This document shows positions 1,923-27,107 of a stretch of DNA of 33,772 bases, in pieces. The position numbers were made by a program, and so were the translations under genes. The notes beneath the pieces were generated by a model, which ran no database searches, was not told the DNA's origin, and saw nothing but the letters and a program-made list of their open reading frames with translations. Source of the DNA: a virus; the IMG/VR virus record IMGVR_UViG_3300030109_000584, positions 1 to 33,772 of that record, one strand, 5' to 3'. Position 1 is the stretch's first letter; every line of letters starts with the position of its first letter.

Positions 1923-1948
1923 ATAGTTTATATAGACATGGAGGTCTT

Positions 1949-3132: not shown

Positions 3133-3151
3133 TTGCATAACCTAAATAGAT

Positions 3152-3352
3152 ATGTTAAAATCTTTAAAGACAGAAAGGGATAGAAGAAGAACAAGAAGAA
3201 AACTTTATACTTCTATCTACGAATATAAATCAATGAACATGGAGGAATTTGAAAGACTATATAGAACTCATAAATTTAAAAAGGATTGGGTAGTCTATCA
3301 ATATCCTACAGAAGATAACGAAGATATAATTGTAAGGAGGGTAAAACAATGA
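3152..3352 (+). CDS. Basic hypothetical protein (66 aa)
   Basis: Arg/Lys-rich N-terminus (KTERDRRRTRRKLY), then YEYKSMNMEEFERLYRTHKFKKDWVVYQYP. No obvious ribosome site precedes the first ATG, and an in-frame stop lies 7-9 bases upstream, so the start is either 3152 or the internal ATG at 3236. The basic N-terminus suggests nucleic-acid contact, which is inference only. Confidence 0.5.
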   Translation: MLKSLKTERDRRRTRRKLYTSIYEYKSMNMEEFERLYRTHKFKKDWVVYQYPTEDNEDIIVRRVKQ

Positions 3353-3507
3353 CAAAGGAACTTAGTATAGCAGATAAAGTTAAGATAATAGATGATGTCA
3401 TAACAAGAGAAGTTGAATGGGCAGATGAATCTACAGAAGATTTACAAAATGCTTGGGTTGATGTTAGACATTACATTAATGAGTTTTATAAGGAGATAAA
3501 AACATGA
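3349..3507 (+). CDS. Small acidic helical protein (52 aa)
   Basis: ATG overlaps the preceding gene end, with AAGGAGGG upstream. A helical acidic sequence (ADKVKIIDDVITREVEWADE, then LQNAWVDVRHYINEFY) suggests a small helical bundle. The stop overlaps the next start (ATGA). No family recognised. Confidence 0.6.
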   Translation: MTKELSIADKVKIIDDVITREVEWADESTEDLQNAWVDVRHYINEFYKEIKT

Positions 3508-3692
3508 GTAGCTTACACAACGATATAGTTATAGAGACTATAAGAGATGAGGTGTTACAAGAAAACGAGAACGGAACTCTTGAACATCAAATAATCCTAA
3601 TGGCTATGAACAATGGCTTACACACACTACAAGACCGAGAAGAGATACTAGAACTATTAGTACGAGAAAGGTTTGAGGGGAGGGTAGAATGA
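3504..3692 (+). CDS. Small hypothetical protein (62 aa)
   Basis: Coupled to both neighbours by 4-base overlaps and preceded by AAGGAG. The sequence is helical and acidic (ETIRDEVLQENENGT, then DREEILELLVRERFEG). No family recognised. Confidence 0.6.
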   Translation: MSSLHNDIVIETIRDEVLQENENGTLEHQIILMAMNNGLHTLQDREEILELLVRERFEGRVE

Positions 3693-3838
3693 CATATCAA
3701 GAATGGAATAAATTGAGAAATGTTTTAACTAAACTAACCGATACAGTAGAGTCAAAAGTATGTGATGTAGAAGTATCAGAGGCATTTGATGATGTATGGG
3801 ATTTAGTAGATGAATTAGATACTGAGGAGGTAGCATGA
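3689..3838 (+). CDS. Small acidic helical protein (49 aa)
   Basis: Start overlaps the previous stop, with GGGGAGGG upstream. Helical and acidic, ending VWDLVDELDTEEVA. Its composition and layout resemble the 52-aa product at 3349 (W-x-D-V plus an acidic helix), so it may be a diverged copy. No function recognised. Confidence 0.55.
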   Translation: MTYQEWNKLRNVLTKLTDTVESKVCDVEVSEAFDDVWDLVDELDTEEVA

Positions 3839-4062
3839 GTAGAACATATAACGAATACTATTTTGAAAAGGAAGATGTCGAGGCAACACTTGATAAGATA
3901 GGATTGCTTACACGATTGCTTGGAATAGTTTACAAAGAGCAAGGACTTGATACTATAAAATATTTAGTAGAAAGAAACAGCAACAGGAAATATCTTTGGC
4001 TAGATGATAGCATGATGGAAGATATAATTAATAATATGGAGGATAAACAATATGAAAGTTAA
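3835..4062 (+). CDS. Small hypothetical protein (75 aa)
   Basis: ATGA overlap with the previous gene and GAGGAGG upstream. The product has helical stretches (EKEDVEATLDKIGLLTRLLGIVYKE) and a conserved-looking NRKYLWLDDSMMEDIINNME tail. It overlaps the next gene by 11 bases. No family recognised. Confidence 0.6.
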   Translation: MSRTYNEYYFEKEDVEATLDKIGLLTRLLGIVYKEQGLDTIKYLVERNSNRKYLWLDDSMMEDIINNMEDKQYES

Positions 4063-4288
4063 ACATTTAAAAAATAAAACAACTATAGAACTAACACCCG
4101 AAGAAATGCATGATTGGATTACAAGAGTTAATCAAATTGATAATATGTTAGATAATTATTCAGAAATGAAAGATGTTTATATGTCTGATGTTTGTAATTT
4201 AGATACAATCAAATGGAGAATGACTAACTTATTTAATTTAACATGGAATAGAGATACACATAAATACATTAAAGGAGATAACAAATGA
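4052..4288 (+). CDS. Small hypothetical protein (78 aa)
   Basis: The ATG is preceded by ATGGAGGATAAACAAT, a strong site inside the previous gene. It is soluble and mixed-charge with several Trp (EEMHDWITRVNQIDNML, IKWRMTNLFNLTWNRDT). No recognised motif. The stop overlaps the next start. Confidence 0.6.
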   Translation: MKVKHLKNKTTIELTPEEMHDWITRVNQIDNMLDNYSEMKDVYMSDVCNLDTIKWRMTNLFNLTWNRDTHKYIKGDNK

Positions 4289-4419
4289 AAATAACAGCAT
4301 GGAATTTGGGTATTGTTTGGGAAGATGGAACTGAACAAGCAATAGGAGATGTACCCGATTGGGTAGCCAATAGAGTTGATGAATATTTAAATGAACTGGA
4401 GGAAGAAGATGAGGACTAG
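4285..4419 (+). CDS. Small acidic hypothetical protein (44 aa)
   Basis: Starts with an ATGA overlap and an AAGGAG site. It reads as a short strand-forming N-terminus (ITAWNLGIVWEDGTEQ) and an acidic helix ending EELEEEDED. The end of the gene carries the ribosome site for the next. No family recognised. Confidence 0.55.
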   Translation: MKITAWNLGIVWEDGTEQAIGDVPDWVANRVDEYLNELEEEDED

Positions 4420-4651
4420 CAGATATGTATTGACAGTAGATAAAAACAGCGACCAAGTTCTAAGTCAGCTACACCAGTTGAAAGAACTTAGAAAAAGTGT
4501 TAGTCTAATCAACAGACATACTAAAAGAAAACACTATGTTAAACTTCAAGGCAGATGGGGAAAGAATAATCCCTTGTATGTTAGAAGAAGTTTCCCGTTT
4601 GCATCTTTGGAAGAGGCTAGTAGGTGGGATGTATATGTATACGAGAAATAA
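4409..4651 (+). CDS. Basic hypothetical protein (80 aa)
   Basis: The ATG at 4409 is preferred over the in-frame one at 4391 because CTGGAGGAAGAAG precedes it. The protein is rich in Arg/Lys with aromatic residues (INRHTKRKHYVKLQGRWGKN, VRRSFPFASLEEASRWDVY), consistent with a small nucleic-acid- or protein-binding beta fold. No family recognised. Confidence 0.6.
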   Translation: MRTSRYVLTVDKNSDQVLSQLHQLKELRKSVSLINRHTKRKHYVKLQGRWGKNNPLYVRRSFPFASLEEASRWDVYVYEK

Positions 4652-4653
4652 CT

Positions 4654-4899
4654 ATGAGTAAACCAAAGTATTTACAAGCCCGTTACGACCAAAAGATTGA
4701 GTTTGATTTATCAGAACTTGATATAGATTGGGACAAAGTGATTGACCATTATATAAAGTATAGCGAACTCACAGTTGAGTTTGAAGATGGAGTGGTTAGA
4801 ACTTATGACCCTACTTACAGATTTGAAATAGATTGGAAGTGGGCAGATAGTGAAAAGATTTACGACTCTAATTTTAAAGTAATGGAGGAGGACTTATGA
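4654..4899 (+). CDS. Acidic hypothetical protein (81 aa)
   Basis: The start at 4654 follows the previous stop by two bases; an upstream in-frame ATG at 4624 would overlap the previous gene. The ribosome site is weak (ACGAGAAATAACT), so translation may be coupled. It is acidic and aromatic (FDLSELDIDWDKVIDHYIKY, then FEDGVVRTYDPTYRFEIDWKW). No family recognised. Confidence 0.55.
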   Translation: MSKPKYLQARYDQKIEFDLSELDIDWDKVIDHYIKYSELTVEFEDGVVRTYDPTYRFEIDWKWADSEKIYDSNFKVMEEDL

Positions 4900-5111
4900 C
4901 TTTATATGGTAGAACAGAAGAAGTAGCATTAAGAGATTTTGAAATGCTAAGATTAATATCAGCAGATAACTTACATTACATAGTAAATAAAGTTGAGCAA
5001 AGAGTATTAGATACCGAGGGCATAGATGCTAAAGAGGGTTATATATATCAGACTATGTTAGAAGAGGTTGCTCATGTTTTTGTTAAAGGATTAATTCTGG
5101 ACAAAGCATGA
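4896..5111 (+). CDS. Small helical hypothetical protein (71 aa)
   Basis: ATGA overlap with the gene before it, with GGAGGAG upstream. The sequence is mostly helical (EEVALRDFEMLRLISADNLH, then YQTMLEEVAHVFVKGLILDK). It overlaps the next start. No family recognised. Confidence 0.6.
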   Translation: MTLYGRTEEVALRDFEMLRLISADNLHYIVNKVEQRVLDTEGIDAKEGYIYQTMLEEVAHVFVKGLILDKA

Positions 5112-5302
5112 CACAATATAAAGATTTAGTAGAGCAGAGAAAAGAAGAACTAGCACAGGAAAAATTAGATAAGCAAGTAACTTCTATTGATTGTAGATAT
5201 GCTAATGGTAAGTGGACTAAGATGATTGTTTGTTATGGTAATGGTAAACAAGTTACACAGTACAACGACAAGCGTAAAAAAGATAAGGTAGAATGGCTTT
5301 AA
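5108..5302 (+). CDS. Small charged hypothetical protein (64 aa)
   Basis: Starts with a 4-base overlap but without a strong ribosome site, so coupling is likely. An N-terminal charged helix (DLVEQRKEELAQEKLDKQVT) is followed by a beta-like segment (IDCRYANGKWTKMIVCYGNGK). No family recognised. Confidence 0.55.
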   Translation: MTQYKDLVEQRKEELAQEKLDKQVTSIDCRYANGKWTKMIVCYGNGKQVTQYNDKRKKDKVEWL

Positions 5303-5451
5303 GAATTAAAGTAATACAAAGTATAGAGCATACTAAAAAGTGTACCTCACAAGGCACAGGAGGTCGTTCTAGGCGTATTAAAATATCAATGTCTCACATG
5401 AACAAGAACAAAAAAAGAAGTTATAAAAAATATAGAGGACAAGGAAGATGA
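5293..5451 (+). CDS. Very basic small phage protein (52 aa)
   Basis: Overlaps the previous gene by 10 bases and the next by 4. Nearly a third of the residues are Lys or Arg, with the pattern SIEHTKKCTSQGTGGRSRR, then MNKNKKRSYKKYRGQGR. From memory, short phage proteins ending in MNKNKRRS-KKYRGQG recur in T7-like and related phages; their role is unknown, but nucleic-acid binding is likely from charge. Confidence 0.6.
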   Translation: MALRIKVIQSIEHTKKCTSQGTGGRSRRIKISMSHMNKNKKRSYKKYRGQGR

Positions 5452-5747
5452 AACATAATTTAATGATACAAATAGCTATAGTTGGAATGATGATTTCAAT
5501 GTGGTTTTTAATGAATGAAAAAGTAAATGGTGTCAGCAGACAGATGTATAGTATTAAAGAACAACAAGATTTAATTAGGCAAAAAATTGATTATCTTTAT
5601 AATGATTACAGTTCTTTATCTGATTACTTATCTTATCACGAAGATACCGGACATGATGTAGGGGTAAACGCAGGGTTAGGAGTGCTGACAGGAGATATAA
5701 TAGTTAATGAGGAATTAATAGCAGAAGATGAAAGCGACATTGACTAA
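5448..5747 (+). CDS. Membrane-anchored hypothetical protein (99 aa)
   Basis: Residues 5-21 (LMIQIAIVGMMISMWFLM) form one clear N-terminal transmembrane helix. A helical linker (SRQMYSIKEQQDLIRQKIDYLY) that may be a coiled coil follows, and the C-terminus is acidic (EELIAEDESDID). Probably an inner-membrane protein with its bulk on one side; spanin- or regulator-like architecture is possible but unsupported. The GGACAAGGAAG ribosome site lies in the previous gene. Confidence 0.6.
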   Translation: MKHNLMIQIAIVGMMISMWFLMNEKVNGVSRQMYSIKEQQDLIRQKIDYLYNDYSSLSDYLSYHEDTGHDVGVNAGLGVLTGDIIVNEELIAEDESDID

Positions 5748-5913
5748 AGAAGAATATAGACATTTTACAGAAAGTTTAGTAGTCATTAAAGAGAAAGCAA
5801 ACATTGACATTGCACATACTGTTGAATATAAAGGAGATACTTTTATAGTAGAGATATTAGACAGTATAAATCTTGATGATTTAGATGAGATTTTATTAGG
5901 CACAGATGAATAA
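5728..5913 (+). CDS. Small acidic hypothetical protein (61 aa)
   Basis: Overlaps the previous gene by 20 bases and has only a modest ribosome site (AGCAGAAG). The protein is alpha/beta-like (EEYRHFTESLVVIKEKANID, then YKGDTFIVEILDSINLDDLDEIL). Its coding sequence contains a promoter-like element at 5804-5832, and a second lies at its end (5897-5925). It is the last of the small-gene block. No family recognised. Confidence 0.55.
   Translation: MKATLTKEEYRHFTESLVVIKEKANIDIAHTVEYKGDTFIVEILDSINLDDLDEILLGTDE
5804..5832 (+). promoter_or_regulatory. Sigma70-like promoter inside the 61-aa gene
   Basis: TTGACA (5804-5809), 17-base spacer, TATAAA (5827-5832): eleven of twelve consensus positions at the ideal spacing. 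It would start a transcript about 210 bases upstream of the ssDNA-binding protein gene. Because it is within coding DNA, chance cannot be excluded. Confidence 0.45.
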
Positions 5914-5925
5914 TTCTGTTATAAT
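5897..5925 (+). promoter_or_regulatory. Sigma70-like promoter upstream of the ssDNA-binding protein gene
   Basis: TAGGCA (5897-5902), 17-base spacer, then a perfect TATAAT (5920-5925). The -10 sits in the intergenic gap before the replication genes, so it is a natural middle promoter for the region from 6054 on. Confidence 0.5.
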
Positions 5926-5996
5926 AAATATAATGAGTAACCGACAGCCCTCCTATCTCCATGTATATAGTATGAAGGTTTGGTTAATCCACAACT

Positions 5997-6024
5997 TTGA
6001 GAGTAGTTGGCTCACAACTCTCAA
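5997..6024 (+). promoter_or_regulatory. Leader stem-loop before the ssDNA-binding protein
   Basis: TTGAGAG (5997-6003) pairs perfectly with CTCTCAA (6018-6024), and TTG (6007-6009) can pair with CAA (6015-6017) inside. It lies 30 bases upstream of the start codon, between the promoter and GAAGGAGG, and may stabilise or regulate the leader. There is no T-tract, so it is not a terminator. Confidence 0.4.
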
Positions 6025-6053
6025 CTTAAACTTTAATACCGAAGGAGGTAAAT

Positions 6054-6467
6054 ATGATAGTTGAAGGAACTGGGTATTGGGCAAGTATTAAAACACCGAA
6101 TACCACTTTTGAACCTGTTTATACTATTAACTTAGTAGTAGAACAGAGTGTAGCTGATGACTTTGCGGGTCGTGGACACACTATAAAACAAATGAATGAA
6201 GGACCGGCTTTAGTAATTAAAAGAAAAGTCAATGGTCCTAATGGAATGATACGAAATGCACCAAGATTAATTGATGTTAATAAACAAGACATTAATTTAG
6301 CTGTTGGTAATGGCTCTAAAGTAAGAGTTCAATGTAGTGAATTTGAATGGGAATATGCCGGTAAGTCTGGTAAAAGCCTTGACCTACAAGGTGTTCAAGT
6401 AATAGAGTTAGTAGAATATAAGTCAGAGGATGGCTCTGAATTTTTTGATGACAACGAGGAATTTTAA
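6054..6467 (+). CDS. ssDNA-binding protein, T7 gp2.5-like (137 aa)
   Basis: Binds single-stranded DNA at the replication fork and is expected to contact polymerase and primase-helicase through its tail. The sequence shows an OB-fold-like beta pattern (GYWASIKTPNTTFEPVYTINLVV, then GPALVIKRKVNGPNGMIRNAP and GVQVIELVEYK). It ends in an acidic tail with a final Phe (DGSEFFDDNEEF). That acidic tail with a terminal aromatic is the hallmark of T7 gp2.5, though the protein is shorter than T7 gp2.5 (232 aa). A strong GAAGGAGG site precedes the ATG, consistent with high expression. The family call rests on the tail, strand pattern and position before the primase-helicase and polymerase. Confidence 0.8.
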   Translation: MIVEGTGYWASIKTPNTTFEPVYTINLVVEQSVADDFAGRGHTIKQMNEGPALVIKRKVNGPNGMIRNAPRLIDVNKQDINLAVGNGSKVRVQCSEFEWEYAGKSGKSLDLQGVQVIELVEYKSEDGSEFFDDNEEF

Positions 6468-6469
6468 TT

Positions 6470-6790
6470 ATGATTATAACAATAACACTAGATGATGGAA
6501 CAACTACTACTTGGGATACTAATAATATTACTGATGATAATATCCAAATGGAGGCAAATGTAATTATTAATAAAGTAGGAACTCTAAGTGTAGTATCAGA
6601 AGCATTACAGTTTAGTACTGCTACTCATAGAAATAACTTAGCAATTTTATTGCAAAACAGAGATGAGGCTGTAGTTGATACACCTACAAGTGAATCAGCA
6701 GAAACTCCAACAGAAGATGGTGATGCTACACCGGATGACTCCGAAGAGGGAATGACCGAGGATGATTCTTCCACAGAAGAAGATTCCTAA
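6470..6790 (+). CDS. Protein with long acidic tail, unknown function (106 aa)
   Basis: Starts 2 bases after the ssDNA-binding protein stop, with GAGGAATTTTAATT as the ribosome region, so it is co-translated. Residues 1-68 look like a small folded domain (MIITITLDDGTTTTWDTNNI, then ALQFSTATHRNNLAILLQNRDEA). Residues 69-106 are almost all Glu, Asp, Thr, Ser and Pro, ending EEDS. An acidic tail next to an ssDNA-binding protein might mimic DNA or act as a chaperone tail, but this is inference. No family recognised. Confidence 0.65.
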   Translation: MIITITLDDGTTTTWDTNNITDDNIQMEANVIINKVGTLSVVSEALQFSTATHRNNLAILLQNRDEAVVDTPTSESAETPTEDGDATPDDSEEGMTEDDSSTEEDS

Positions 6791-15874: not shown

Positions 15875-16099
15875 ATGAAAGATAAAGAAGCAACTCTTCT
15901 TGCGTATAAAATATTATACAATAGAGCAGGTAAGCTAATAACAGAGAGAACAATTACAGACATTACAGAATTGAAACCTTACTTTACAGATGAAGAGTAT
16001 GCAACTTTAAAATCTGTATTACGAGAAGGTACTATCAAACTAGATGAAGTACATAATTATATAGAAGCTAATTTAAATGCTAGAAGAATGACAGAATGA
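15875..16099 (+). CDS. Small hypothetical protein upstream of the cyclase (74 aa)
   Basis: AAGGATATAAA precedes the ATG. Soluble alpha-helical sequence (KEATLLAYKILYNRAGKLIT, then FTDEEYATLKSVLREGTIKL). Its stop overlaps the cyclase start, so the two are translationally coupled. No family recognised. Confidence 0.6.
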   Translation: MKDKEATLLAYKILYNRAGKLITERTITDITELKPYFTDEEYATLKSVLREGTIKLDEVHNYIEANLNARRMTE

Positions 16100-17850
16100 A
16101 ATGGGCTAGTCTATTACTAGGTTTATTAACGCTACCTTTATTATTTAACTTCACACCCTTAGAAGTCTTACGACTTAAAACTTTTGATGCTTTTATAGAA
16201 ACACCAGAACCCTCTGGTAACTTTGTAATCTTAAATATCACAGAAGAAGATGTAAGAGAAAGAGGAGGCTATCCTTTTCCTAGACAAGACTTAGCACAAA
16301 TACAAATAGACTTACTTAACAAAGGTGCATTAGGTGTAGGCTGGGTTATTTTATTTCCACAACCAGATAGGTTTGAAGGCGATGAAGTTTTTGCAGAAGC
16401 ATTATCTTATGCTCCTAGTATCTTAGCAATGCCCGAATATGATAATGGTATTTATCCTAAAACACATGGTACTGTTATTCTTGGACCAGATGTAGACTTA
16501 CCTAAAGCTACAGGGTTTTTACAAAACATACCCGAACTTCAAGAGTCTGCTTCTCAAGGTGCTGTGTCTGCACCAGTAGATGTTGATAACCTTGTAAGAA
16601 GATTACCACTACTACAACAAACACCTAATGGTTGGGTTGCTGCTTTTGGTACAGAAGTTTTAAAAGTATTAGTAGGTGGTAAAACTTATCAGATAAAAAC
16701 AAATGACAATGGTATAGAACAAATAAGAGTAAGAGGATTAAATCCAATAAGCACAGATAGTCTTGGTCGTAAATGGATTAGTTGGGTTGATACACCACAA
16801 ACTACACTATCTGAAATGAATGTAGCAAACAAGTTTGTATTCGTAGGTGTTACTGCAAAGGGTGTTATGCCCACTTTAGCGACACCAAATGGGCTACTAG
16901 AGCCTCACAAGATACAGTCTGCCCTTGCAGAAAGTATTTTGATTAACTCTCCGTTCATACCTGACTATAGATTATTCGCTGAATTACTAATATTAACTGT
17001 TTCCGGTCTGCTTATTGCTTTTGTTATAAGTTACTTTGGAATTACATGGGGCTTAGTATTAGCAGGAGTATCTATGTTATCTGTTGGTTCTCTTGGATAT
17101 TACTTTATATCTATTGGTTACTTGATAGATGTAACTTGGTCTTTAATAAGTATGTTATTAATAGGAACTCAACAATTCTATTTAAACTTTAGAACTCAAT
17201 ACAAACTAAGACAACAAATAAAGAAACAGTTTGAACATTACCTTGACCCAAGACAAGTAAAACAATTACAAGATAATCCAGAACTTTTAAAACTTGGTGG
17301 CGAAAGAAGATACTGTACCTTTTTGTTTACAGATGTCAGAGGCTTCACTTCACTATCAGAAAGATTAGAACCAGAACAAGTAACAGATATAATGAACAAA
17401 GCTTTGACTATACAATCAGATGCAGTTAAGAAGTATGGTGGTATGGTTGACAAGTATATAGGCGATGCAATGATGGCAATCTTTAATGCTCCTTTAGATT
17501 TAGATATGCACGAAGACAGAGCAATACTAACAGCTATAGAAATCAAAAAGAAAATGAGAGAAGCAGGACTAGGTATTGATATTGGTATAGGTATTAATAG
17601 TGGAGTTGCTGTTATTGGTAATATGGGTAGCGAAACAAGGTTTGACTTTACAGCTTTAGGAGATGCAGTAAATTTAGCAGCAAGAATGGAGAGTAGTTGT
17701 AAAGAAGTTGGAGAAGATATTGTCATTGCTCAAGGAACAGCAGAGCAAACAGACATAAAATTAGACAGATTAGATGATATTTATGTAAAAGGTAAAGAAA
17801 AACCTATCCAAATCTACACAATATCCGAAAATGCTATGAGAGCTTCTTAG
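16096..17850 (+). CDS. Membrane adenylate cyclase with CHASE2 sensor (584 aa)
   Basis: Predicted to make cAMP in the host cytoplasm in response to an extracytoplasmic cue. Order: N-terminal membrane helix (5-20), CHASE2-type sensor (about 25-285, NFVILNITEEDVRERGGYPFPR near its start), three closely spaced membrane helices (about 295-365), linker, class III cyclase domain (about 405-580). Metal-binding D413 (FTDVRGFT) and D457 (YIGDAMMAIF) are 44 residues apart, as in known cyclases. K453 and T519 (FDFTALGD) are the adenine-selecting pair of class IIIb, and N526 and R530 stabilise the transition state, so the enzyme looks complete and ATP-specific. Last gene of the plus arm, convergent with the curli/FecR operon. 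Confidence 0.93.
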   Translation: MKWASLLLGLLTLPLLFNFTPLEVLRLKTFDAFIETPEPSGNFVILNITEEDVRERGGYPFPRQDLAQIQIDLLNKGALGVGWVILFPQPDRFEGDEVFAEALSYAPSILAMPEYDNGIYPKTHGTVILGPDVDLPKATGFLQNIPELQESASQGAVSAPVDVDNLVRRLPLLQQTPNGWVAAFGTEVLKVLVGGKTYQIKTNDNGIEQIRVRGLNPISTDSLGRKWISWVDTPQTTLSEMNVANKFVFVGVTAKGVMPTLATPNGLLEPHKIQSALAESILINSPFIPDYRLFAELLILTVSGLLIAFVISYFGITWGLVLAGVSMLSVGSLGYYFISIGYLIDVTWSLISMLLIGTQQFYLNFRTQYKLRQQIKKQFEHYLDPRQVKQLQDNPELLKLGGERRYCTFLFTDVRGFTSLSERLEPEQVTDIMNKALTIQSDAVKKYGGMVDKYIGDAMMAIFNAPLDLDMHEDRAILTAIEIKKKMREAGLGIDIGIGINSGVAVIGNMGSETRFDFTALGDAVNLAARMESSCKEVGEDIVIAQGTAEQTDIKLDRLDDIYVKGKEKPIQIYTISENAMRAS

Positions 17851-17941: not shown

Positions 17942-18328
17942 CTAAAAATGACTATAATTATTAATAACTGCATATGTTAAACCTACATTCATAACAGTTA
18001 TATAATTTTTACTACCATTTCTTGCATAAAAAGTACCGACTATAGCTTTTTGTAATAGTAATTCTTTTAACTCTGGTCTATCAGGTAAAAGAATATTAGT
18101 TTCTCTACAGGTGCTACATTTTTTTAAACCTTTATGAGTTGTATAAACATCTAAAACATTAAGAGTCCAAAAAGTTATTAACTGTGCTTTTGTAGGAGGT
18201 TCATTATAGTCTCCTAAATTTAATAGTTTAGTTTCTGGTGGTATATATGCAGCAGGTTGTTCAGGTAATGTTAAATCTAGTTCAGATTGTAAACTAATTC
18301 CAAATAATAATAGACATAAATATTTCAT
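17942..18328 (-). CDS. Small membrane protein of the curli/FecR operon (128 aa)
   Basis: Last gene of the minus-strand operon, starting one base after the FecR stop. It has a signal-like N-terminus (KYLCLLLFGISLQS), a Pro-rich segment (LPEQPAAYIPPETK), and two hydrophobic stretches: ITFWTLNVLDVYTTHKGL (about 51-68) and YITVMNVGLTYAVIN (about 108-122). A CSTC pair (residues 71-74) lies between them. The TLNVLD-YTT--GL...C-E-N-LLPD layout recalls small membrane proteins of the DUF5658 type, a weak resemblance from memory. Its position links it to the FecR/curli group; function is unknown. Confidence 0.6.
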   Translation of the reverse strand: MKYLCLLLFGISLQSELDLTLPEQPAAYIPPETKLLNLGDYNEPPTKAQLITFWTLNVLDVYTTHKGLKKCSTCRETNILLPDRPELKELLLQKAIVGTFYARNGSKNYITVMNVGLTYAVINNYSHF

Positions 18329-18329: not shown

Positions 18330-19436
18330 TCAATTACCTTGTTTAATTGTTATGGTAGAAGAACCACCACCATTTACTATAATTTGTGTACTCTTTCCAT
18401 TTTGTACAAGTATGACAGTATAAGAACCTGTCTTGTCCAAATCTAATCTTACTGTATCTTCTAATGATTTTAAGAAAGTTATTATATTATCTGTAGCAAA
18501 AGTATTAACCTGAGTATTAGAATCAAATCCCATACTCGTTCCTTTTAAATCTAAGTCAGCTTTCAATAAAGTTTCTGTCTGGTCCAACTCATTTACATCC
18601 TGTATTATGTCTAACAAGTCTTCAAGAAAGTTTACATCTAAATAATTTATATCTAGCTCTGTAAACTCTAAGTCATCTTCTGCAAGATAGTCTACATCTA
18701 AATCATCAAAGTCAAGGAAGTCAGCATCAAGAATATTAGAAACGCTAACTCCATTCTCTCCTTGTACATCTATTTTCTCCTGTGGTGGATTTACTATTAA
18801 CATATTATCAATTAACTCTAAAGTTAAATCTAATATAACCGGTTTAGTAGGTTCTGTTTCAAACATAGAAACTGTAGTAGCTTGATATGGTTTATTGAGA
18901 ATAACTTCTCCCATAGCTGTTGCCACTAATATTTCTCCACTAGGAGTTCCATCTGCTTTTGGTAATAATATAATTAAAGACTCTCCAATCTCATTGACTG
19001 TAATGGTAAAATCTGTACCACGAATAGAAACATTAGCACTCGGAGTTGAGATAGCTATGTTCTCTTTGTTTATATTATTTAACTTGCCAGTAATAAACCT
19101 TGCAGTTCCACTAGCAAATTGTAGAGCCATCTTAGATTTAGATGGGTCAGGGTCATAGATAAATTCATCAATAATTAATTTAGAATGTTCAGTCAATCTA
19201 ACTTGACTGTCATCTTTAAATGTAATACCCAATCTTCCGTTAGAAGTTTGGACATTATCAAAACTGTTTATGTTAAAAGATAAGGCAGCGTTAAAGGTTT
19301 TATCCCTTACAACCCTGCCTGTACCGTTTAGTTCTGTTATATTACCTATATCAACAGCCGACTGCGGTTCCGCCATCGTTCTGAATGACACAGATAGTAC
19401 CACTAGAACCAGTAGACAATATTTTAAGCCAATCAT
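18330..19436 (-). CDS. Exported FecR-domain protein with acidic repeats (368 aa)
   Basis: Periplasmic regulator-like protein. The ATG at 19436 gives a clean signal peptide (MIGLKYCLLVLVVLSVSFRTMA, cut before EPQ); a TTG two codons earlier is an alternative. Residues about 60-165 are a FecR domain: NGRLGITFKDDSQVRLTEHS, FASGTARFITGKL, then ISTPSANVSIRGTDFTITV. Unlike classical FecR there is no N-terminal cytoplasmic anti-sigma part, and no sigma factor gene is nearby. A highly acidic repeat region (FLDFDDLDVDYL, ELDINYLDVNFL; about 235-275) and a C-terminal beta segment (GSYTVILVQNGKSTQIIVNG) follow. FecR domains without an anti-sigma part are also found beside CHASE2-cyclases. It overlaps the curlin gene by 86 bases. 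Confidence 0.85.
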   Translation of the reverse strand: MIGLKYCLLVLVVLSVSFRTMAEPQSAVDIGNITELNGTGRVVRDKTFNAALSFNINSFDNVQTSNGRLGITFKDDSQVRLTEHSKLIIDEFIYDPDPSKSKMALQFASGTARFITGKLNNINKENIAISTPSANVSIRGTDFTITVNEIGESLIILLPKADGTPSGEILVATAMGEVILNKPYQATTVSMFETEPTKPVILDLTLELIDNMLIVNPPQEKIDVQGENGVSVSNILDADFLDFDDLDVDYLAEDDLEFTELDINYLDVNFLEDLLDIIQDVNELDQTETLLKADLDLKGTSMGFDSNTQVNTFATDNIITFLKSLEDTVRLDLDKTGSYTVILVQNGKSTQIIVNGGGSSTITIKQGN

Positions 19437-20064
19437 TATCAAGTGTACTCATTTGATTTATATTAAAAGTTCTGCTGTTACCTGTCTGGTCAAGGTAGAA
19501 GTAACCTCCTGCGTATCCCTGTCCATCAAAGTTTACAGTGTTTGAATCCCCATCAATATCCATGTAGTTAGTAGCACCGTCATAATCTATATCAGCATTA
19601 ATAGTATTGCTATCTCCGTTAATAATCCAGTCTAAATCTGTATTACTAGACATAGAACTTGTAGCTAAATCAAGTGTAAAAGTATTACTAGTACCAGTTA
19701 CATCTACATTAACATCTGAACCATCAGCTCCGTATGTATTAGTAGGGTCAACTTGTATAGTAAAATCATTACTACTTCCATCAAACTCAAAAAAGCCTGT
19801 GAAGTTATCAGCAGTTATATCTCCTAAGAAACTGTTAGTAGAACCTATTTGGTTTATGTCCAGTGTCATAGAAGTTCCGTCTAAATCTAAAGGTGTTAAA
19901 GTTCCGGATACGGAATTTAGTCCACCTATAATATTAGCAGAACCTAATTGCTCTAAATCAAGATTAGCAGTAGCTCCAGATTGTTCAACGTATATCTCAT
20001 TATCCGCTGCATAAGTCATTATAGACATAATCACTAGTGCAGTTAGTATTAATTTGTTATTCAT
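19351..20064 (-). CDS. Secreted curlin-like repeat protein (237 aa)
   Basis: Likely the substrate exported by the CsgG/CsgF pore. It has a signal peptide (residues 1-20, ending MTYAA) then about eight degenerate beta-repeats around a G-x-[ST]-N core: QSGATAN 28, QLGSANI 39, QIGSTNS 72, DGSSNDF 95, TGTSNTF 123, NGDSNTI 149, DGDSNTV 171, QTGNSRT 193. Several repeats are flanked by alternating hydrophobics (LDINQIG, FYLDQTG) as in curlin strand-turn-strand units. The first Gln is kept in about half and replaced by Asp, Thr or Asn in the rest. It is acidic with almost no Lys/Arg in the mature part and ends in a Cys pair (C225, C237). A curlin homologue is the best reading; true amyloid formation is untested. 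Confidence 0.75.
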   Translation of the reverse strand: MNNKLILTALVIMSIMTYAADNEIYVEQSGATANLDLEQLGSANIIGGLNSVSGTLTPLDLDGTSMTLDINQIGSTNSFLGDITADNFTGFFEFDGSSNDFTIQVDPTNTYGADGSDVNVDVTGTSNTFTLDLATSSMSSNTDLDWIINGDSNTINADIDYDGATNYMDIDGDSNTVNFDGQGYAGGYFYLDQTGNSRTFNINQMSTLDNDWLKILSTGSSGTICVIQNDGGTAVGC

Positions 20065-20854
20065 ATTCCCAATAGCCTCTCTCTATTCCTATTTTTATTA
20101 TGTTTAAAACACCTGTCTCTATTGCCTTTTGCAAAGCTATAGAAACACTTTCATTCTCAGCAACACCACCTTCTACTTCTACTAGTTCAGTACCAGTTTC
20201 AATAAAACGAAATATATCCTGAGAAATACTTGTTGATAAAATACTTTTAGAAACTAATGTTTCTGTAAGTACTTCACCAGTTGACACAGATACTAACCTT
20301 AAAGATATAGTAACTGCGTCTTCTCTGTACTGTTTACTAGAACCTATTCCTAGATATCTAGCACCAGCACCTCCAGATTTGAGGTTAGCTTCATAGCTAA
20401 CAACTCCACCCTGAACTAGTAACCCTGCAAATAGCAAAGGTTTCATTTGTTTGTCTTCTTCAAACTCTTGACGAGTGCTTCTAATTAGTTGTCTTTCTTT
20501 TGTTAGGTCATCTAAACCTACTCTTTCTACAACTCTAAAAAATTGTCCACCTGCTGTATGTTTAAAAGCTCTAATTAAAAAAGCTTCAGGTGCTTGTGTA
20601 ATAGCTGTACTAAACAAAGCAAAAGTACTGTTACTTTTTCTTTGCCCTGTTAAGTCTCTAAAACTATTAGGGTATATTGCTATTGTTGGTTTGTTCTTAG
20701 CCGGTGGTAAATTCTTTAACTCTTCTGATTGTAACTCTATTGTAGAAGTAGACTGTATTTTTTTAGTTAATACTAAGTCACTGTTCTCATTTAGAACTGC
20801 ACAACTAGAAAGTAAAAGTACCGATAGGCAAAGAAATCGTTGTAGAATTTCCAT
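20057..20854 (-). CDS. csgG: Curli export pore lipoprotein CsgG (265 aa)
   Basis: CsgG forms the nonameric outer-membrane channel through which curlin subunits leave the cell. Evidence: lipoprotein signal with lipobox LLLSSC (Cys about 18) at the N-terminus, then TIAIYPNSFRDLTGQRKSN, the typical CsgG opening, FFRVVERVGLDDLTKERQLI, LLFAGLLVQGGVVSYEANL, GARYLGIGSSKQYREDAVTISLRLVSVSTGEVL, and a C-terminal helix. Length is close to E. coli CsgG (277 aa). The ATG at 20854 is chosen; a GTG codon immediately upstream would add one residue. The start overlaps csgF by 50 bases and the stop overlaps the curlin start by 8, a tight operon. No export signal other than the lipoprotein one is needed. Confidence 0.92.
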   Translation of the reverse strand: MEILQRFLCLSVLLLSSCAVLNENSDLVLTKKIQSTSTIELQSEELKNLPPAKNKPTIAIYPNSFRDLTGQRKSNSTFALFSTAITQAPEAFLIRAFKHTAGGQFFRVVERVGLDDLTKERQLIRSTRQEFEEDKQMKPLLFAGLLVQGGVVSYEANLKSGGAGARYLGIGSSKQYREDAVTISLRLVSVSTGEVLTETLVSKSILSTSISQDIFRFIETGTELVEVEGGVAENESVSIALQKAIETGVLNIIKIGIERGYWEYE

Positions 20855-21299
20855 CACTGTCCGTTATAATCAAAGTTATTATTCCATCTACAACACTATA
20901 CTCTATAGTATTGCCTTCTAATTCTAATATGCCATTATCTGAAGGTGTCTCTCCAAATAAATTTTCTACTAACTGTCTAGATAACTGTGCGTATATTCTA
21001 GACTCTAAATTCCTTATAAATCTTGCAAGTGTAGTATTTTCTTTGTCTCTTTCTATTTGGTCTTGTAAAGCTTTTATCTCTGCTTTAAGGGCTTCTTTAC
21101 GATTAAACTCTTGATTTTGTATTGTAAGATAATGACTTGAAGTTCCTATACCACTAAAGCTAGGGCTTTTAAATTTAAATACTACTTCATCTGATAGACT
21201 ATCAACAGACCAGAACATAATAAGCATAGTCCAAAAGAACATACAAAACTTACAGTTTCTTATAGTTTTATTACTTTTAAATGTCGGTACTAATTTCAT
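20805..21299 (-). CDS. csgF: Curli accessory factor CsgF (164 aa)
   Basis: CsgF plugs its N-terminus into the CsgG pore and links it to nucleation of fibres at the cell surface. The mature N-terminus reads DEVVFKFKSPSFSG, matching the CsgF signature F-x-F-x-x-P-x-F-x-G that inserts in the pore. A helical stretch with coiled-coil character (KAEIKALQDQIERDKENTTL, ESRIYAQLSRQLVENLFG) and the CsgF-like tail YSVVDGIITLIITDSDGNST follow. The signal sequence (MFFWTMLIMFWSVDSLS) is preceded by a basic n-region if the ATG at 21299 is used, 5 bases after the stop of the small gene upstream; 21242 is an alternative start. E. coli CsgF is 138 aa; this one has a longer helical middle. Confidence 0.85.
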   Translation of the reverse strand: MKLVPTFKSNKTIRNCKFCMFFWTMLIMFWSVDSLSDEVVFKFKSPSFSGIGTSSHYLTIQNQEFNRKEALKAEIKALQDQIERDKENTTLARFIRNLESRIYAQLSRQLVENLFGETPSDNGILELEGNTIEYSVVDGIITLIITDSDGNSTTISLPIGTFTF

Positions 21300-21416: not shown

Positions 21417-21704
21417 TTAATCTCTTCTTTGGTCTTTTTTTCCATCTGCTCTTGCTATTCTATCTACGTCTACTTGAACTCCTAATACTGTTCTACACAT
21501 AGAGTCTATTCTTATCATATCGTTATCCATCTGTCTTACTCTATCTATCAGTGCAACTATCATACCGTGTTGCACATCTAATTTTTTGTGTACGTCTGCT
21601 ATTAAATGTTGGAATAATTTCCACACCATCCAACCAGCAGCAACTGCAAAAGCTGCAGGAATACCTACAGTCTCTAACAAATCCATAAACTGATTAGCGT
21701 TCAT
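21417..21704 (-). CDS. Small membrane protein, holin-like topology (95 aa)
   Basis: One membrane helix (residues 13-31, VGIPAAFAVAAGWMVWKLF), then a charged amphipathic helix (DVHKKLDVQHGMIVALIDRV...MDNDMIRIDSM) and a basic tail (GKKDQRRD). This single-helix plus coiled-coil layout resembles BhlA/UviB-type holin-like phage proteins. A holin or holin-partner role is inferred; no sequence-level family match can be claimed. Confidence 0.6.
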   Translation of the reverse strand: MNANQFMDLLETVGIPAAFAVAAGWMVWKLFQHLIADVHKKLDVQHGMIVALIDRVRQMDNDMIRIDSMCRTVLGVQVDVDRIARADGKKDQRRD

Positions 21705-22103
21705 TTACTTTTTACCGAAGTCTTTACCTGACTTTGAACTAGAAGTATAAAGCCCAAACCAAGCTGCTCCTGCTCCTACAACAACAGATATTAAACCTGA
21801 TTGCTCCATGCTTGGGTCTACTAAATCCATATACCAAAAGACTACATAGTATAATAAATACATATATACACTAAGAAAAGCTCTAGGTATAAGTCTCCAA
21901 CTATCTATAGCTTGAGCTACAAATATCCATCGTTGATAAGGATTGTCATTTCTTTCATCTTCTAACTCACGTATCCTATCTTTTAAAGCTGACTTCTCAG
22001 ATAATAACGCCATAAATTTATTAAGGTCAATTTCTACCTCGTTTCTATCCATGTCGCCACTAAAGCCACCCATTTGATTGTTCATGTTATTGTTGTTACC
22101 CAT
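21705..22103 (-). CDS. Small membrane protein with two helices (132 aa)
   Basis: N-terminus is Asn/Met-rich (MGNNNNMNNQMGG), then a helical charged part (EIDLNKFMALLSEKSALKDRI). Two hydrophobic segments follow: PRAFLSVYMYLLYYVVFWYM (about 73-92) and GLISVVVGAGAAWFGLYTSS (about 103-122), with a basic end. The VVGAGAAWFGLYT segment is one I recall from small membrane proteins of marine phages. It is flanked by two other membrane proteins with 0-1 base spacing, so a shared role, perhaps in lysis, is plausible. Confidence 0.6.
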   Translation of the reverse strand: MGNNNNMNNQMGGFSGDMDRNEVEIDLNKFMALLSEKSALKDRIRELEDERNDNPYQRWIFVAQAIDSWRLIPRAFLSVYMYLLYYVVFWYMDLVDPSMEQSGLISVVVGAGAAWFGLYTSSSKSGKDFGKK

Positions 22104-22546
22104 TACTTACCTTTAGCTAAACTACCACCAAAATACATACCTATAATAGCTGATACTAAGTTGGTGTCTAATTGCGTTATTACAAGCCCTTGAAAAGTTA
22201 TCCACTCAAATACTTCTCTACCTTCTCTAAAGAATAAAAATCCCGGATTCCAGTTAGTATAACCTACAGTAACAGATACATCAGGATAGTAGACAGCTAC
22301 AAGTTTAGGCAGTAACACAATAGCAAACACAGATGTTAGTGCTATTATTCTTCTTGTCCATGCAAAACCTTTATCTTTTAATCCGTGGTCAAGTGATTGT
22401 TTTTTTGCTTTCATTTCAAACTCGCCACGTGTTATAAGTAGCTTTTGATTTTCAGCTTTAGCTTTACGACTTTCAGCCCACACACTCATAAAGCCACCTA
22501 AGACTGTAGAAGCTAACATAGTTACTATTTCAAAAGGAAATCCCAT
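22103..22546 (-). CDS. Membrane protein with about three helices (147 aa)
   Basis: Hydrophobic segments: FEIVTMLASTVLGGFMSVW (5-23), RRIIALTSVFAIVLLPKLVAVY (65-86) and ITQLDTNLVSAIIGMYFGGSL (123-143). Between the first two is a charged helix (ESRKAKAENQKLLITRGEFE). From memory similar proteins lie near virion genes of marine tailed phages. Its start overlaps the previous stop (TAATG). A role in lysis or virion assembly is inferred only from place. Confidence 0.6.
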   Translation of the reverse strand: MGFPFEIVTMLASTVLGGFMSVWAESRKAKAENQKLLITRGEFEMKAKKQSLDHGLKDKGFAWTRRIIALTSVFAIVLLPKLVAVYYPDVSVTVGYTNWNPGFLFFREGREVFEWITFQGLVITQLDTNLVSAIIGMYFGGSLAKGK

Positions 22547-22683
22547 TATACTATTTGCTCCATTAAATCTTCGTATAGTTTTCTAAAACTTTCTAAGTCC
22601 ATAAAACCTACGCCTTGTGTAAGTTGGTGTAGCCTATAAACATTATAAGCTTTTTCAAGTTGTGCCTCTGTGTAAAGTATCAT
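22546..22683 (-). CDS. Small conserved-looking phage protein (45 aa)
   Basis: The ATG overlaps the stop of the 1475-aa gene (ATGA), and its stop overlaps the next start, which strongly supports translation. The sequence TEAQLEKAYNVYRLHQLTQG, then FMDLESFRKLYEDLMEQIV is a two-helix peptide. From memory short phage proteins with KAYDIYRLHQ--QG--FM-LE-FR are widespread. Function unknown. Confidence 0.65.
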   Translation of the reverse strand: MILYTEAQLEKAYNVYRLHQLTQGVGFMDLESFRKLYEDLMEQIV

Positions 22684-25600
22684 TGTTCAAAAGTACCTTT
22701 ATCTAAATTACGTTGATAAACAGAACTAACCGTATCTACGTAACTTTGGTCAGTAGCATAACCAGCATTTTTAAGTTCTTGTAAATATTCTATATCTGAT
22801 TTAGCATTTAAAGCTTTATTATAATTTCCTGTATTTAAAAAATTTATATAGCCTTTTATATTATCTTCAATAGTATTATATGTTCTAAAATTAGCTACTT
22901 CATCTACTTGTCCTTCTCCATAGTCTTCTTTAGTAGGCATCATTACACCTTTAAAATCTTCTCCTTTTCTTACTTTAACTCCAAAAGTATTATTAAGTTC
23001 TTGAGCTATTTTACTCATACCATATTTGCTTTCTGCTCCTGCTTGTGCGGCTGCCATAGCTGGAAAAGGATGACCACTTTCTTTTAATTTTAAATACATA
23101 TCTCTAACAAAATTATCAGGTTCTTTGTTTATATCAGCGTTTCCTATATATATAAGTTTTCCTTTTTCATTTTTTACAAAGTTACCATCTGCACCTGTTT
23201 TATATTGTTTTTCAGTTTGAGTTTTATATTTTTGCACTAAGTTTCTTATAGTATCAATTATACCTATACCACCTTCATTAAAACCTAGCCTAGTCATTTG
23301 GTCTGAGTAAGGTAGTCCTGTAAAAGGGTCTACTCTATTAGCAGGGTCTTCTTTAGTTTGTGGTACATCGTCTTTGCCTTTTACTAATCCTCCTGTTGCA
23401 TATCCTCTAACAGGGTCATATATTTTATCCGCACCTATAGGTCTATTAGGTTTGTCTTCTATTAATTTTTCTTCTGTTAAAATTTCTGAAGCTCTATTAG
23501 TATAATCTACAAGTTCTGCACCTAAAGGTAATGTTCTTAATCCTGAAACAGCAGCTCCTTCGTAATCTCCTTTTTCAAAATTTCTATAAGTTTTACCAAT
23601 ATTATTATACCATCTATCTAATAATCCAAACAAAGGAGATATAGCAGACGTAGCAGTTCCATATCCTGTACCTGCCCACGTTCCAAATACTCTAGAAAGT
23701 TTTTCAGCCCTCCAATCTATTATACCAGACAGTGCTGCACCTTCTCCCCACCATTTAGCACTAAAATTTTCTGGTTCATTTTTTGCATAATATTCTCTTG
23801 CTGGACTAGCTACAATTTGTGCTTCCCTTAGTCCTCCAAAAATACCTATAGTCCCCAACATTTTAATAGCTAATTTTAAATCTCCATCTTCAACTCTTTT
23901 AATTAATGAGTTCATTTGTGCTACTTTATATTGTGCCCAAGATAAAAATAAACCTGCAGATTTAACTGCTGGATTGTTACTTTGTGCAAAAAATTGTCTA
24001 TTACCGACTCCGGGTAAACCAACATCTCTAATTCGAGCTCTATTACCAGCTTTTACAAGGATTCTTTCTCCTGTTTTATTAGCTAAAGCTTCTTCTACAC
24101 TTTTAAATTTATTTAAAGTTTTTATTTCTTTCATATTAACTGTGTAATAATTTAATTTATTTCTTGTTGCAGAATTAATAGTTGTTTTATTCCCTATTTT
24201 TTTAGCTATATTAAATGTTTCATCTATACCTGTACCAAACGCACCTTTAGCAGCAAAGTTAGTTCCCGGAGCCATTAAATTCATTTTGAAAAATGTTTGA
24301 GTCCAGTCTCCTAGCTTTTCTTGAAATTTTGTAGTAGGTGCTAGTCCAGAAGATATAGCTGCTTCAATATCTTTATTAACTGTAGAAGCTATGTCTCCTT
24401 TAGTCATCCCAAATCTTCCTTTACCACCTATTCTATAAGTATTTGCAATACTATCTTTTTTAGAAGCTGCTGCAAATCCTCTAAATGCAGAATAAACACT
24501 GCTATTTTGAAAAGGCTGTAAAAAATCTCCTAACTGTGGTATAATAGAACGAGGTAACATTGTTGTATTAGATAAAAATGTAAGTAGTGCAAATCCATCT
24601 TTAGCTAAATCACTTTGAAAAGGGTCAGCAGCACTTTTATGTAAAGTTCCAAAGTAAGCATTTACAGTTTTAGAAAGTGTTTTTATTTTGTCTTTGTATT
24701 CACGTTCATTTATTAAGCCTCTTTCATATTTACCACGAATACGAGCATATGTTTTATTTAATAACTCTCCATTTTCTCCAATTTTTCTAGAAAACTCTAC
24801 TCCCTTCGTAGTGTTTCTAATAAAAGCATCTAAAACTTCTTTAATATCTTTTTCTAATATAGGTTCTAAAATTTTTCTAGATTCTAAACTTTTAAAAATT
24901 CTTTCCTTTTGAAAGTTTTTTAATTCTGGTATACCTATAAAGTTTCCAAGTATTCCACTACTTATATTTTCATTTTTAAACATAGTAGTTGTTCCTCTAC
25001 CACTTATGTTTTCTACAATTATTTTAGCAACATCTTTTACATCAGCACTTTTACTTATTTCAGGGTAATAATCTTGTAATTTATTTATTACATTTTTGTC
25101 CCAGTTAGGAAATTCTGCTTTTAAAGCATTTTCAAATATTTTTCTAGCTTCTGTAGGATTAGCAAAAACTTTTTTCTGTGCATACATTTGCGGTAAATCA
25201 TAATTATCAATTTGTTTTACAGTAACTCCAGCATCTTGTACATATTTTAACATTTCTTTTACAAATAATTTTGAATTACCAGCAAGTACATCAATGTTTG
25301 CCATTTCTTTAGTTGAAAATCCTAGTGCTTTAATTTCAGCTCGTGTCATTGTTTTAGTAGCTAATTTACCAGCAGCTATCCTTTGAACATCAGACGCATC
25401 TTGAACAACTTCTGAAACTCTTCTAGAAAAAATTCCGACCATTAAATCCGAAGTTTCTTCGGCAGACATAATTCCTTTATACTTACCATCTAATACCGTA
25501 AATAAATTACGTCCGATTACTTCTAACTCATCACCATGGTTTACTAATCTATTGGCAGTTGTTCCAGAACCTTTAACTTTTAAAAAATTGTGTAACATTC

Positions 25601-27107
25601 TCGCAGATTCATTTTCTATAAGACCAAAAGCTTTTTCTTTCTGACCCTTTAAAAGATAATCTGCATCTTTTACTCTATTATACATTAAACCAAAAGTCAT
25701 ACCGGCACCCATTAAAGTATAATTAATAGTATCGTCTTCATCACCTATAAAAGTTCCTGCTGTAAAACCAACACCTGCACCAAACAACGGTCTGAAGCTT
25801 TCATTTAATACTGTTTTTAATAAATTATCTGTTAGCTCAAAATCTTTAGCTAATATTTTTAATTGACCGTCTACTACTTCTACTTGACCACGTGCAGTTT
25901 TTTGCATTAAATCAAAAAAATCATCTGCTAAAAATTTTTCAGCTTCTTTAGATTTAGTTTTTAAATTTTTTAATTTTGTAGGACTTATTTTGACTTTATT
26001 TTTAATATCTAATTTAGATATTTCTGGAAAATCTAGTTGTCCTGTTGTTACATTAAATTTAGCTTCTATATCTTTTGCATTTTTATAATTTAACATATCG
26101 TTTTTAGCTTTCTTATACATGTTTACAAGTATAGGAGAAGCTTCTAACTCTTCTAATATAACTGGATTTTCTTTTACTAGTTTTTGTATGCCTTTATCTA
26201 AATCATCAATTTCTTTTGTAGTTAAAGTAATAACTTCTTCATCTTTAACAGAACTTTTAACAATAGTATTTGCTTCAGGATTATCTATTTTACCTAAATT
26301 AATTTCATCTCCATCAACAGACCTATATCTATTAGCAACTACAGAGCCTAATAAAGAACTTCCGCCACCTACAGCAGCACCAAATAATACATTATTAGGA
26401 TTAACTTCACCATAAGCAGAATACTCATATAGTGCCATATCTGTAGCACCTATACCTGCACCTACTCCAGTAGCTGTAATCTTACCTAATTTTGCTACTT
26501 TTGCCCAAGGTATAAAGAAAGTAACTGGGTCAGCTATGGCTACACCAACTCTACCTGTTATAGTTGCTGCATCGTTTTCATGCTCTCTAAAACTTGTACC
26601 GTATTTTTCTTCTAAAGTATTAAATATTTTAGTACGTCTTTCTTCTTCAATTTGTTTTATATTATCTTGAAAAGTTTTGTTATTACTTAAAGTAGCTACT
26701 CCAGCTTTTACAGTTCTAAAAAGATTTCCAAGTGTATGACGTTCTAAAGAAGCACCAAGTTCTATTTTTTGTGTAGTAGTGGGTTCTTCATCAGCGATTT
26801 TGTCTTCTACAATAGATGTAGCGTTAAACTTATTTAAAAAATAATTAGAGTCATATTGAGGTTTTTCAGAAACTACAGAATCAGGAATTATTTTTTCTTC
26901 TAACTCAGGAGATTCAAACTTTTCTTTTTTACCTTCATAATTTAAAAGTTCTACATCTTCATCACGAATAAGTTCAGCTATTTGTTGTTCTTGTTTTAAT
27001 CTTTCTTCTTCTTCTCTTTTCTTTTTTTCTTCTTCTGTTTCACCGGGTTCTGCATTAAACTTATTTAAAAAATAATTAGCGTCATATACAGTATTATCAG
27101 TTGACAT
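22680..27107 (-). CDS. Giant internal/ejection protein with C-terminal glucosaminidase (1475 aa)
   Basis: Probably enters the host with the DNA and digests peptidoglycan, comparable to T7 gp16 (1318 aa). The N-terminus has two copies of YD[AS]NYFLNKFNA (residues 8-19 and 85-96) around a Glu/Lys/Arg-rich helix. Hydrophobic segments follow at about 190-260 (VGVAIADPVTFFIPWAKVAK, GAAVGGGSSLLGSVVA). A Gly-rich linker (YATGGLVKGKDD...DPFTGLPYSDQ) leads to a C-terminal GH73/FlgJ-like domain: FPAMAAAQAGAESKYGMSK with the likely catalytic Glu, NNTFGVK, and FRTYNTIEDNIKGYINFL. T7 gp16 has its lytic domain at the N-terminus and of another type, so the arrangement differs. The start follows the 646-aa gene closely. 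Confidence 0.85.
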   Translation of the reverse strand: MSTDNTVYDANYFLNKFNAEPGETEEEKKKREEEERLKQEQQIAELIRDEDVELLNYEGKKEKFESPELEEKIIPDSVVSEKPQYDSNYFLNKFNATSIVEDKIADEEPTTTQKIELGASLERHTLGNLFRTVKAGVATLSNNKTFQDNIKQIEEERRTKIFNTLEEKYGTSFREHENDAATITGRVGVAIADPVTFFIPWAKVAKLGKITATGVGAGIGATDMALYEYSAYGEVNPNNVLFGAAVGGGSSLLGSVVANRYRSVDGDEINLGKIDNPEANTIVKSSVKDEEVITLTTKEIDDLDKGIQKLVKENPVILEELEASPILVNMYKKAKNDMLNYKNAKDIEAKFNVTTGQLDFPEISKLDIKNKVKISPTKLKNLKTKSKEAEKFLADDFFDLMQKTARGQVEVVDGQLKILAKDFELTDNLLKTVLNESFRPLFGAGVGFTAGTFIGDEDDTINYTLMGAGMTFGLMYNRVKDADYLLKGQKEKAFGLIENESARMLHNFLKVKGSGTTANRLVNHGDELEVIGRNLFTVLDGKYKGIMSAEETSDLMVGIFSRRVSEVVQDASDVQRIAAGKLATKTMTRAEIKALGFSTKEMANIDVLAGNSKLFVKEMLKYVQDAGVTVKQIDNYDLPQMYAQKKVFANPTEARKIFENALKAEFPNWDKNVINKLQDYYPEISKSADVKDVAKIIVENISGRGTTTMFKNENISSGILGNFIGIPELKNFQKERIFKSLESRKILEPILEKDIKEVLDAFIRNTTKGVEFSRKIGENGELLNKTYARIRGKYERGLINEREYKDKIKTLSKTVNAYFGTLHKSAADPFQSDLAKDGFALLTFLSNTTMLPRSIIPQLGDFLQPFQNSSVYSAFRGFAAASKKDSIANTYRIGGKGRFGMTKGDIASTVNKDIEAAISSGLAPTTKFQEKLGDWTQTFFKMNLMAPGTNFAAKGAFGTGIDETFNIAKKIGNKTTINSATRNKLNYYTVNMKEIKTLNKFKSVEEALANKTGERILVKAGNRARIRDVGLPGVGNRQFFAQSNNPAVKSAGLFLSWAQYKVAQMNSLIKRVEDGDLKLAIKMLGTIGIFGGLREAQIVASPAREYYAKNEPENFSAKWWGEGAALSGIIDWRAEKLSRVFGTWAGTGYGTATSAISPLFGLLDRWYNNIGKTYRNFEKGDYEGAAVSGLRTLPLGAELVDYTNRASEILTEEKLIEDKPNRPIGADKIYDPVRGYATGGLVKGKDDVPQTKEDPANRVDPFTGLPYSDQMTRLGFNEGGIGIIDTIRNLVQKYKTQTEKQYKTGADGNFVKNEKGKLIYIGNADINKEPDNFVRDMYLKLKESGHPFPAMAAAQAGAESKYGMSKIAQELNNTFGVKVRKGEDFKGVMMPTKEDYGEGQVDEVANFRTYNTIEDNIKGYINFLNTGNYNKALNAKSDIEYLQELKNAGYATDQSYVDTVSSVYQRNLDKGTFEQ
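26824..26856 (-). repeat. 33-bp direct repeat, copy 2 (in the 1475-aa gene)
   Basis: These 33 bases match 27055-27087 with a single mismatch and encode the second NYFLNKFNA motif. Being nearly identical at DNA as well as protein level, the copies look like a recent or gene-converted duplication. Confidence 0.75.
27055..27087 (-). repeat. 33-bp direct repeat, copy 1 (in the 1475-aa gene)
   Basis: Partner of 26824-26856, 231 bp away. It encodes the N-terminal NYFLNKFNA motif at residues 8-19. Confidence 0.75.

Follow-up and report, generated by a model that had tools for sequence, protein, structure and literature searches.

We find that a marine-type phage sequence carries a curli-type (type VIII) secretion module that is already known, and that it adds to this module an inverted cyclase gene and a clear recombination history. 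The sequence analyzed here (the window) comprises 33,772 nucleotides, positions 1 to 33,772 of IMG/VR record IMGVR_UViG_3300030109_000584, i.e., nearly all of a linear record of 34,133 bases. Its minus strand encodes CsgF, CsgG, a secreted curlin-like protein and a FecR-domain protein, and the adjoining plus strand encodes a CHASE2 receptor cyclase of the same module. A first-pass annotation, made from the DNA letters, had correctly recognized the curli-type genes and, while allowing that the parts might not be new, thought their full combination worth studying. Its coordinates, 18330–21299, proved exact: they run from the likely CsgF start codon at 21299 to where the FecR-domain gene ends at 18330. 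That gene, although within the span, had gone unnamed, as had the cyclase.

The CsgG-like outer-membrane channel lipoprotein (265 aa; 20057..20854, minus strand) matches the Pfam CsgG family (PF03783) over residues 51–264 with an E-value of 4.8e-50, and its lipobox, LLSSC, contains a cysteine (Cys18) that is invariant among 10 relatives. The CsgG profile aligns over its full length with solved E. coli-type CsgG chains, which are nonamers, at 4.6e-63, a match at the level of sequence. The CsgF-like secreted pore partner (164 aa; 20805..21299, minus strand, likely start ATG at 21299) matches PF10614 (2.3e-16) and carries FKFKSPSFSG, an instance of the pore-insertion motif F-x-F-x-x-P-x-F-x-G. 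The N terminus is also the part that aligns, weakly (E = 0.04), with CsgF of PDB 6L7A, and CsgF is conserved in 78 IMG/VR loci.

The putative export substrate is a secreted curlin-like repeat protein (237 aa; 19351..20064, minus strand) with a signal peptide and eight G-x-x-N-type units of about 24 residues, spaced 22–33 residues apart; the autocorrelation of hydrophobicity peaks at 24. The Pfam curlin repeat, PF07012, did not match the window protein above cut-off, and NCBIfam yielded only weak matches (CsgB, 3.5e-4; CsgA, 2e-3). PF07012 is passed by the positional homolog in Methylophilales phage Melnitz and by the second curlins of Melnitz and Pelagibacter phage HTVC008M. When a profile was built from the window protein and its HTVC008M and Melnitz relatives, it found a solved curlin-repeat protein, 8C50, at 6.5e-7. 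An AF2 model based on 39 phage sequences consists of a series of short strands forming beta repeats (pLDDT 71, pTM 0.74). The best viral-model matches of this model in Foldseek are "Curlin associated" proteins (probability 1.00); a fold search against the PDB returned nothing below an E-value of 0.001. Taken at the level of sequence and model, these data support the presence in a phage of a curli-type export unit together with a curlin-like substrate.

Hence the lipobox, the pore-entry signature and the approximately eight repeats behind a signal peptide, all noted in the first-pass annotation, were borne out, and of the Pfam families it had named PF03783 and PF10614 were recovered but PF07012 was not. 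The genes do overlap one another, as expected of the overlapping minus-strand operon it described, except for a 118-nt gap upstream of CsgF. CsgB, CsgC, CsgD and CsgE, which it had not seen, were not found in the window. The unit can be called complete with respect to its core (channel, CsgF, and substrate) but not with respect to CsgE, which was detected at E ≤ 1 in none of 12 phage records (the window's and eleven others) in a search that did detect the E. coli control.

The combination is not new. CsgF and CsgG have been reported in pelagimyophages (Zaragoza-Solas et al., PMC7029224) and in Melnitz, where a role in lysis was proposed (Buchholz et al., PMC9004378). Wittmers et al. (2022, PMC9599517) described the order CsgF-CsgG-CsgA/B-FecR-(CsgA/B)-adenylate cyclase in podoviruses and myoviruses (pelagiphages), as a module that lacks CsgE and is abundant in the ocean. 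The window has the same components in the same order (CsgF, CsgG, a CsgA/B-like fiber protein, FecR, and cyclase), likewise without CsgE, C or D; it differs in having a single curlin gene, a 128-aa open reading frame (ORF) in place of the second curlin, and an inverted cyclase. The same order, annotated as CsgF, CsgG, curlin-associated protein, FecR and cyclase, is present in the isolates HTVC008M and Melnitz, although these are larger Kyanoviridae (~141–147 kb) with two curlin-repeat proteins and a CsgG 39–46% identical to that of the window. Since the combination is both published and present in annotated isolates, the gene set of the window is not new. Compared with E. coli csgBAC/csgDEFG, the window shares the CsgG channel, CsgF and a curlin-type substrate, has no detected CsgB, C, D or E, and adds FecR and the CHASE2 cyclase. 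The second curlin-repeat protein of HTVC008M (L082, 8489–9811; annotated as hypothetical) has a PA14 domain before its curlin repeats and could possibly serve as a carbohydrate-binding adhesin tip.

Comparison across marine virus contigs showed that the csg genes recur together. Relatives of the window's CsgG were found in at least 230 IMG/VR stretches, and relatives of the cyclase number at least 600 in IMG/VR. The synteny CsgF-CsgG-curlin-FecR-(128 aa)-cyclase is shared by IMG/VR loci, HTVC008M and Melnitz. Purifying selection acts on every module gene tested (dN/dS 0.06–0.34; 0.07–0.13 for CsgF and the curlin-like protein). Because the genes recur together and are constrained in this way, the set is not a chance assembly; the window's module offers a clear and testable example of a gene set common in ocean phages. 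A scan of genome contigs for a bacterial donor gave just four phage-like contigs, and no donor was found. These four, assigned to metagenome bins (MAGs) of Maricaulis, Flavobacteriaceae, Rhodobacteraceae and Pelagibacter (L085, L086, L087, and L088), carry part or all of the phage module together with the phage-type 95-aa gene described below and are probably phage DNA binned into MAGs.

The gene called "AC" in the published module encodes a class III CHASE2 receptor cyclase which, judged by its residues, has the full catalytic set. The window protein (584 aa; 16096..17850, plus strand) combines a CHASE2 periplasmic sensor (Pfam CHASE2, 5.1e-26) with a nucleotidyl cyclase domain (Guanylate_cyc, 3.5e-20) and matches CyaB 3R5G at 6e-31. 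Catalytic residues D413, K453, D457, D523, N526 and R530 are all present, and all six are intact in 38 of 39 cyclase sequences. In the window, cyclase and csg genes lie on opposite strands, and the cyclase gene shares an ATGA overlap with an ORF at 15875–16099, which follows the ribonucleotide reductase (RNR) genes. In other relatives the cyclase is the last gene of the csg strand: among 159 loci with both, cyclase and csg genes are co-directional in 151 and opposite in 8, the latter corresponding to six contigs (L130–L134 and L209), with some co-directional contigs likewise counted as two loci. A further contig, L137, has the same RNR-ORF74-cyclase arrangement and ends before the csg genes. 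When 105 cyclases were placed in a tree, the opposite-strand six fell inside a supported set of nine, which argues for an in-place inversion within one sub-clade. The inversion of the cyclase gene onto the RNR strand in a small sub-clade is new here; the words "CHASE2," "opposite" and "inverted" are absent from the text of PMC9599517.

The module of the window is also a recombinant of two phage lineages. Sliding DNA identity shifts sharply at ~19.1–19.25 kb, placing a breakpoint (19100..19260) near the start of fecR. On the csgF-csgG-curlin side, DNA identity to L002-type phages is ~90–100%, whereas fecR is 92–100% identical to L130, and the cyclase/RNR side is 96–98% identical to L137 and 89–98% identical to L130 except for stretches at 78%. 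The mature part of FecR thus moved with the cyclase and not with the curlin.

FecR is a periplasmic protein of 368 aa with a signal peptide (18330..19436, minus strand; PF04773, 5.7e-11), and the start of its signal-peptide region overlaps the 3′ end of the curlin gene by 86 nt (19351–19436). Curlin/fecR overlaps of about 86 nt recur in the podovirus-type relatives L002, L004 and L025; Melnitz has an overlap of 23 nt and HTVC008M none. Pairwise distances across 78 genomes correlate more strongly between FecR and cyclase than between FecR and curlin (Spearman 0.77 versus 0.45; bootstrap difference 0.16–0.46). In bacteria, FecR adjoins CHASE2 in 4 of 30 alphaproteobacterial CHASE2 loci, and in the biofilm-regulating Burkholderia BiofilmReg operon (PMC5192318) a FecR-domain periplasmic protein adjoins a CHASE2 membrane sensor as it does in the window, although there the fusion partner of CHASE2 is a histidine kinase and curli genes are lacking. 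We conclude that the FecR-CHASE2 pairing is real, yet no rule. In the literature, FecR is read as an iron regulator and the cyclase as one of catabolite type; the strand flip, the breakpoint and the missing host cyclases (see below) draw attention to them as a pair. An iron-signaling anti-sigma regulator was rejected as an identity for FecR: the protein has an N-terminal signal peptide, and the neighboring ORFs gave no match to a sigma factor or TonB receptor.

There is a hint that the FecR tail mimics the curlin repeat. Its motif, L-D-x-D...Y-T-V-I-x-x-Q...S-x-I-x-I-x-Q, resembles 1.5 curlin repeats. When the tail was aligned with the curlin repeat by hhalign, the E-value was 0.013 and the probability 3%, and none of 200 column shuffles reached the score. 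Fragments of the tail had no Pfam match. Structure prediction for FecR was poor (pLDDT 42), with strands at ~70 in the tail.

How might such a module be used? The first-pass annotation suggested a surface amyloid or an opening of the outer membrane late in infection. The reading that we prefer, and that we would put at even chances, is that of a surface amyloid made late in infection and equipped with an envelope sensor of its own. The csg genes, which share a strand with the virion genes, would be expressed late; host Sec would export the module proteins, and the curlin-like protein would reach the cell surface through CsgG-CsgF and there form a beta-solenoid fiber. Such a fiber might glue infected cells and debris to neighbors, or block competing phages. 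FecR and the CHASE2 cyclase would act together as a single envelope sensor, monitoring the periplasm or the export process, rather than as an iron regulator. In the window's sub-clade, where the inversion has placed the cyclase in the RNR operon, its expression would precede that of the csg genes and be independent of it. Several observations weigh against a late surface amyloid with its own sensor. Melnitz-infected cultures showed no clumping (PMC9004378), CsgE is missing, the FecR-CsgG distance correlation (0.745) nearly equals that of FecR with the cyclase, and a FecR neighbor was undetected in 26 of the 30 CHASE2 loci, within 1.5 kb flanks in which several neighbors were cut. The signaling arm meets a difficulty in the host as well. 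The nearest isolates and a GC content of 32.5% suggest SAR11. Among 147 SAR11-order genomes, many of which may be incomplete, a class III cyclase occurs in one, on a phage-like contig that carries the module, and cyclic-nucleotide-binding (cNMP-binding) domains in 11; the 12 phage records yielded no cNMP-binding protein. Should SAR11 be the host, this scarcity leaves the cyclic-nucleotide signal with no visible receptor. CsgG itself was present in 3 of the 147 genomes, one of them the phage-like module contig.

The position of the module invites a different use. It follows three small membrane proteins (21417–22546), the 95-aa one being weakly YvrJ-like, and the CsgE gate is absent, so that the CsgG-CsgF pore might be a device for lysis or for permeabilizing the outer membrane, timed by its neighbors, with the curlin-like protein secondary or a plug, much as proposed for Melnitz (PMC9004378). 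We consider this unlikely: it leaves the conserved CsgF and curlin-like protein, FecR and the cyclase unexplained, the YvrJ matches are below the level of proof, and Pelagibacter phage HTVC104P retains the neighboring small protein (147 aa) without csg genes. The missing gate also fits an open CsgG channel through which infected cells would take up cofactors, siderophore-type molecules or nutrients, as put forward in PMC7029224 and PMC9599517. Here too a conserved secreted substrate and CsgF would have no explanation, and FecR sits with a CHASE2 cyclase in a module whose ORFs in the window have no sigma factor or TonB receptor match, which makes uptake quite improbable. Least probable in our estimate is that the FecR-CHASE2 cyclase is the selected cargo, its cyclic nucleotide reprogramming the host or blocking a competitor, with the curli genes there mainly to supply its signal. 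The intact catalytic set, the transfer of the cyclase in a block with FecR and, in one clade, the flip to the RNR operon all agree with it; however, CsgG, CsgF and curlin are equally conserved, no receptor was found in the phage records, and the likely host order has few.

Returning to the late surface amyloid, its parts could be joined into a closed circuit, which we regard as a long shot. The curlin-mimicking tail of FecR would sense unexported or templated periplasmic curlin and switch the CHASE2 cyclase, whose product would act in a host lineage without a class III cyclase of its own; in the sub-clade, the cyclase would have moved to the earlier replication/RNR operon so as to be ready before the export machine.

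The remainder of the window is organized in two arms. Small ORFs and the genes for primase/helicase, DNA polymerase, exonuclease and both RNR subunits occupy the plus strand; the minus strand carries large virion-type proteins and then the csg genes, which run toward the RNR arm, so that the arms converge at ~17.9 kb. From upstream to downstream, the minus-strand order is the three small membrane proteins (22546–21417), CsgF, CsgG, the curlin-like protein, the FecR-domain protein and the 128-aa ORF. The last (17942..18328, minus strand) has a likely signal peptide and no family match above cut-off; it is sometimes present between fecR and the cyclase, with three relatives at 62% (L011, L015, and L043). 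No integrase was found in the window's record or in the 11 other records searched, in keeping with the lytic phage of the first-pass annotation, although the window's record is only a 34 kb fragment. Terminator and promoter scans gave signal at or near chance level. The nearest isolates are Pelagibacter phages HTVC103P, HTVC104P and HTVC115P (DNA polymerase 48%, large internal virion protein 25–27%); no CsgG was found in them, and HTVC104P has other small genes at the convergent junction. The distant match to their large protein (25–27%) is a 1475-aa protein of the window (22680–27107, minus strand) with a C-terminal glucosaminidase domain, likely an ejected virion protein. Among the small ORFs at 385–6790, one matches DUF6552 (6.5e-20), one DUF3310 and one, weakly, MtN3/SWEET (9e-4).

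Finally, the literature places a histidine kinase, "sometimes two," before the module. In the window, CsgF is preceded by a 95-aa single-transmembrane (TM) protein (21417..21704, minus strand). A histidine kinase was rejected for this protein, which is too short and has no kinase domain in any of the 22 members compared; the commonest weak match is YvrJ (12 of 22 members, best E = 0.007). HTVC008M has two similar 93-aa ORFs before CsgF. Position and copy number make this ~95-aa single-TM membrane protein the most likely identity of the published "histidine kinase."

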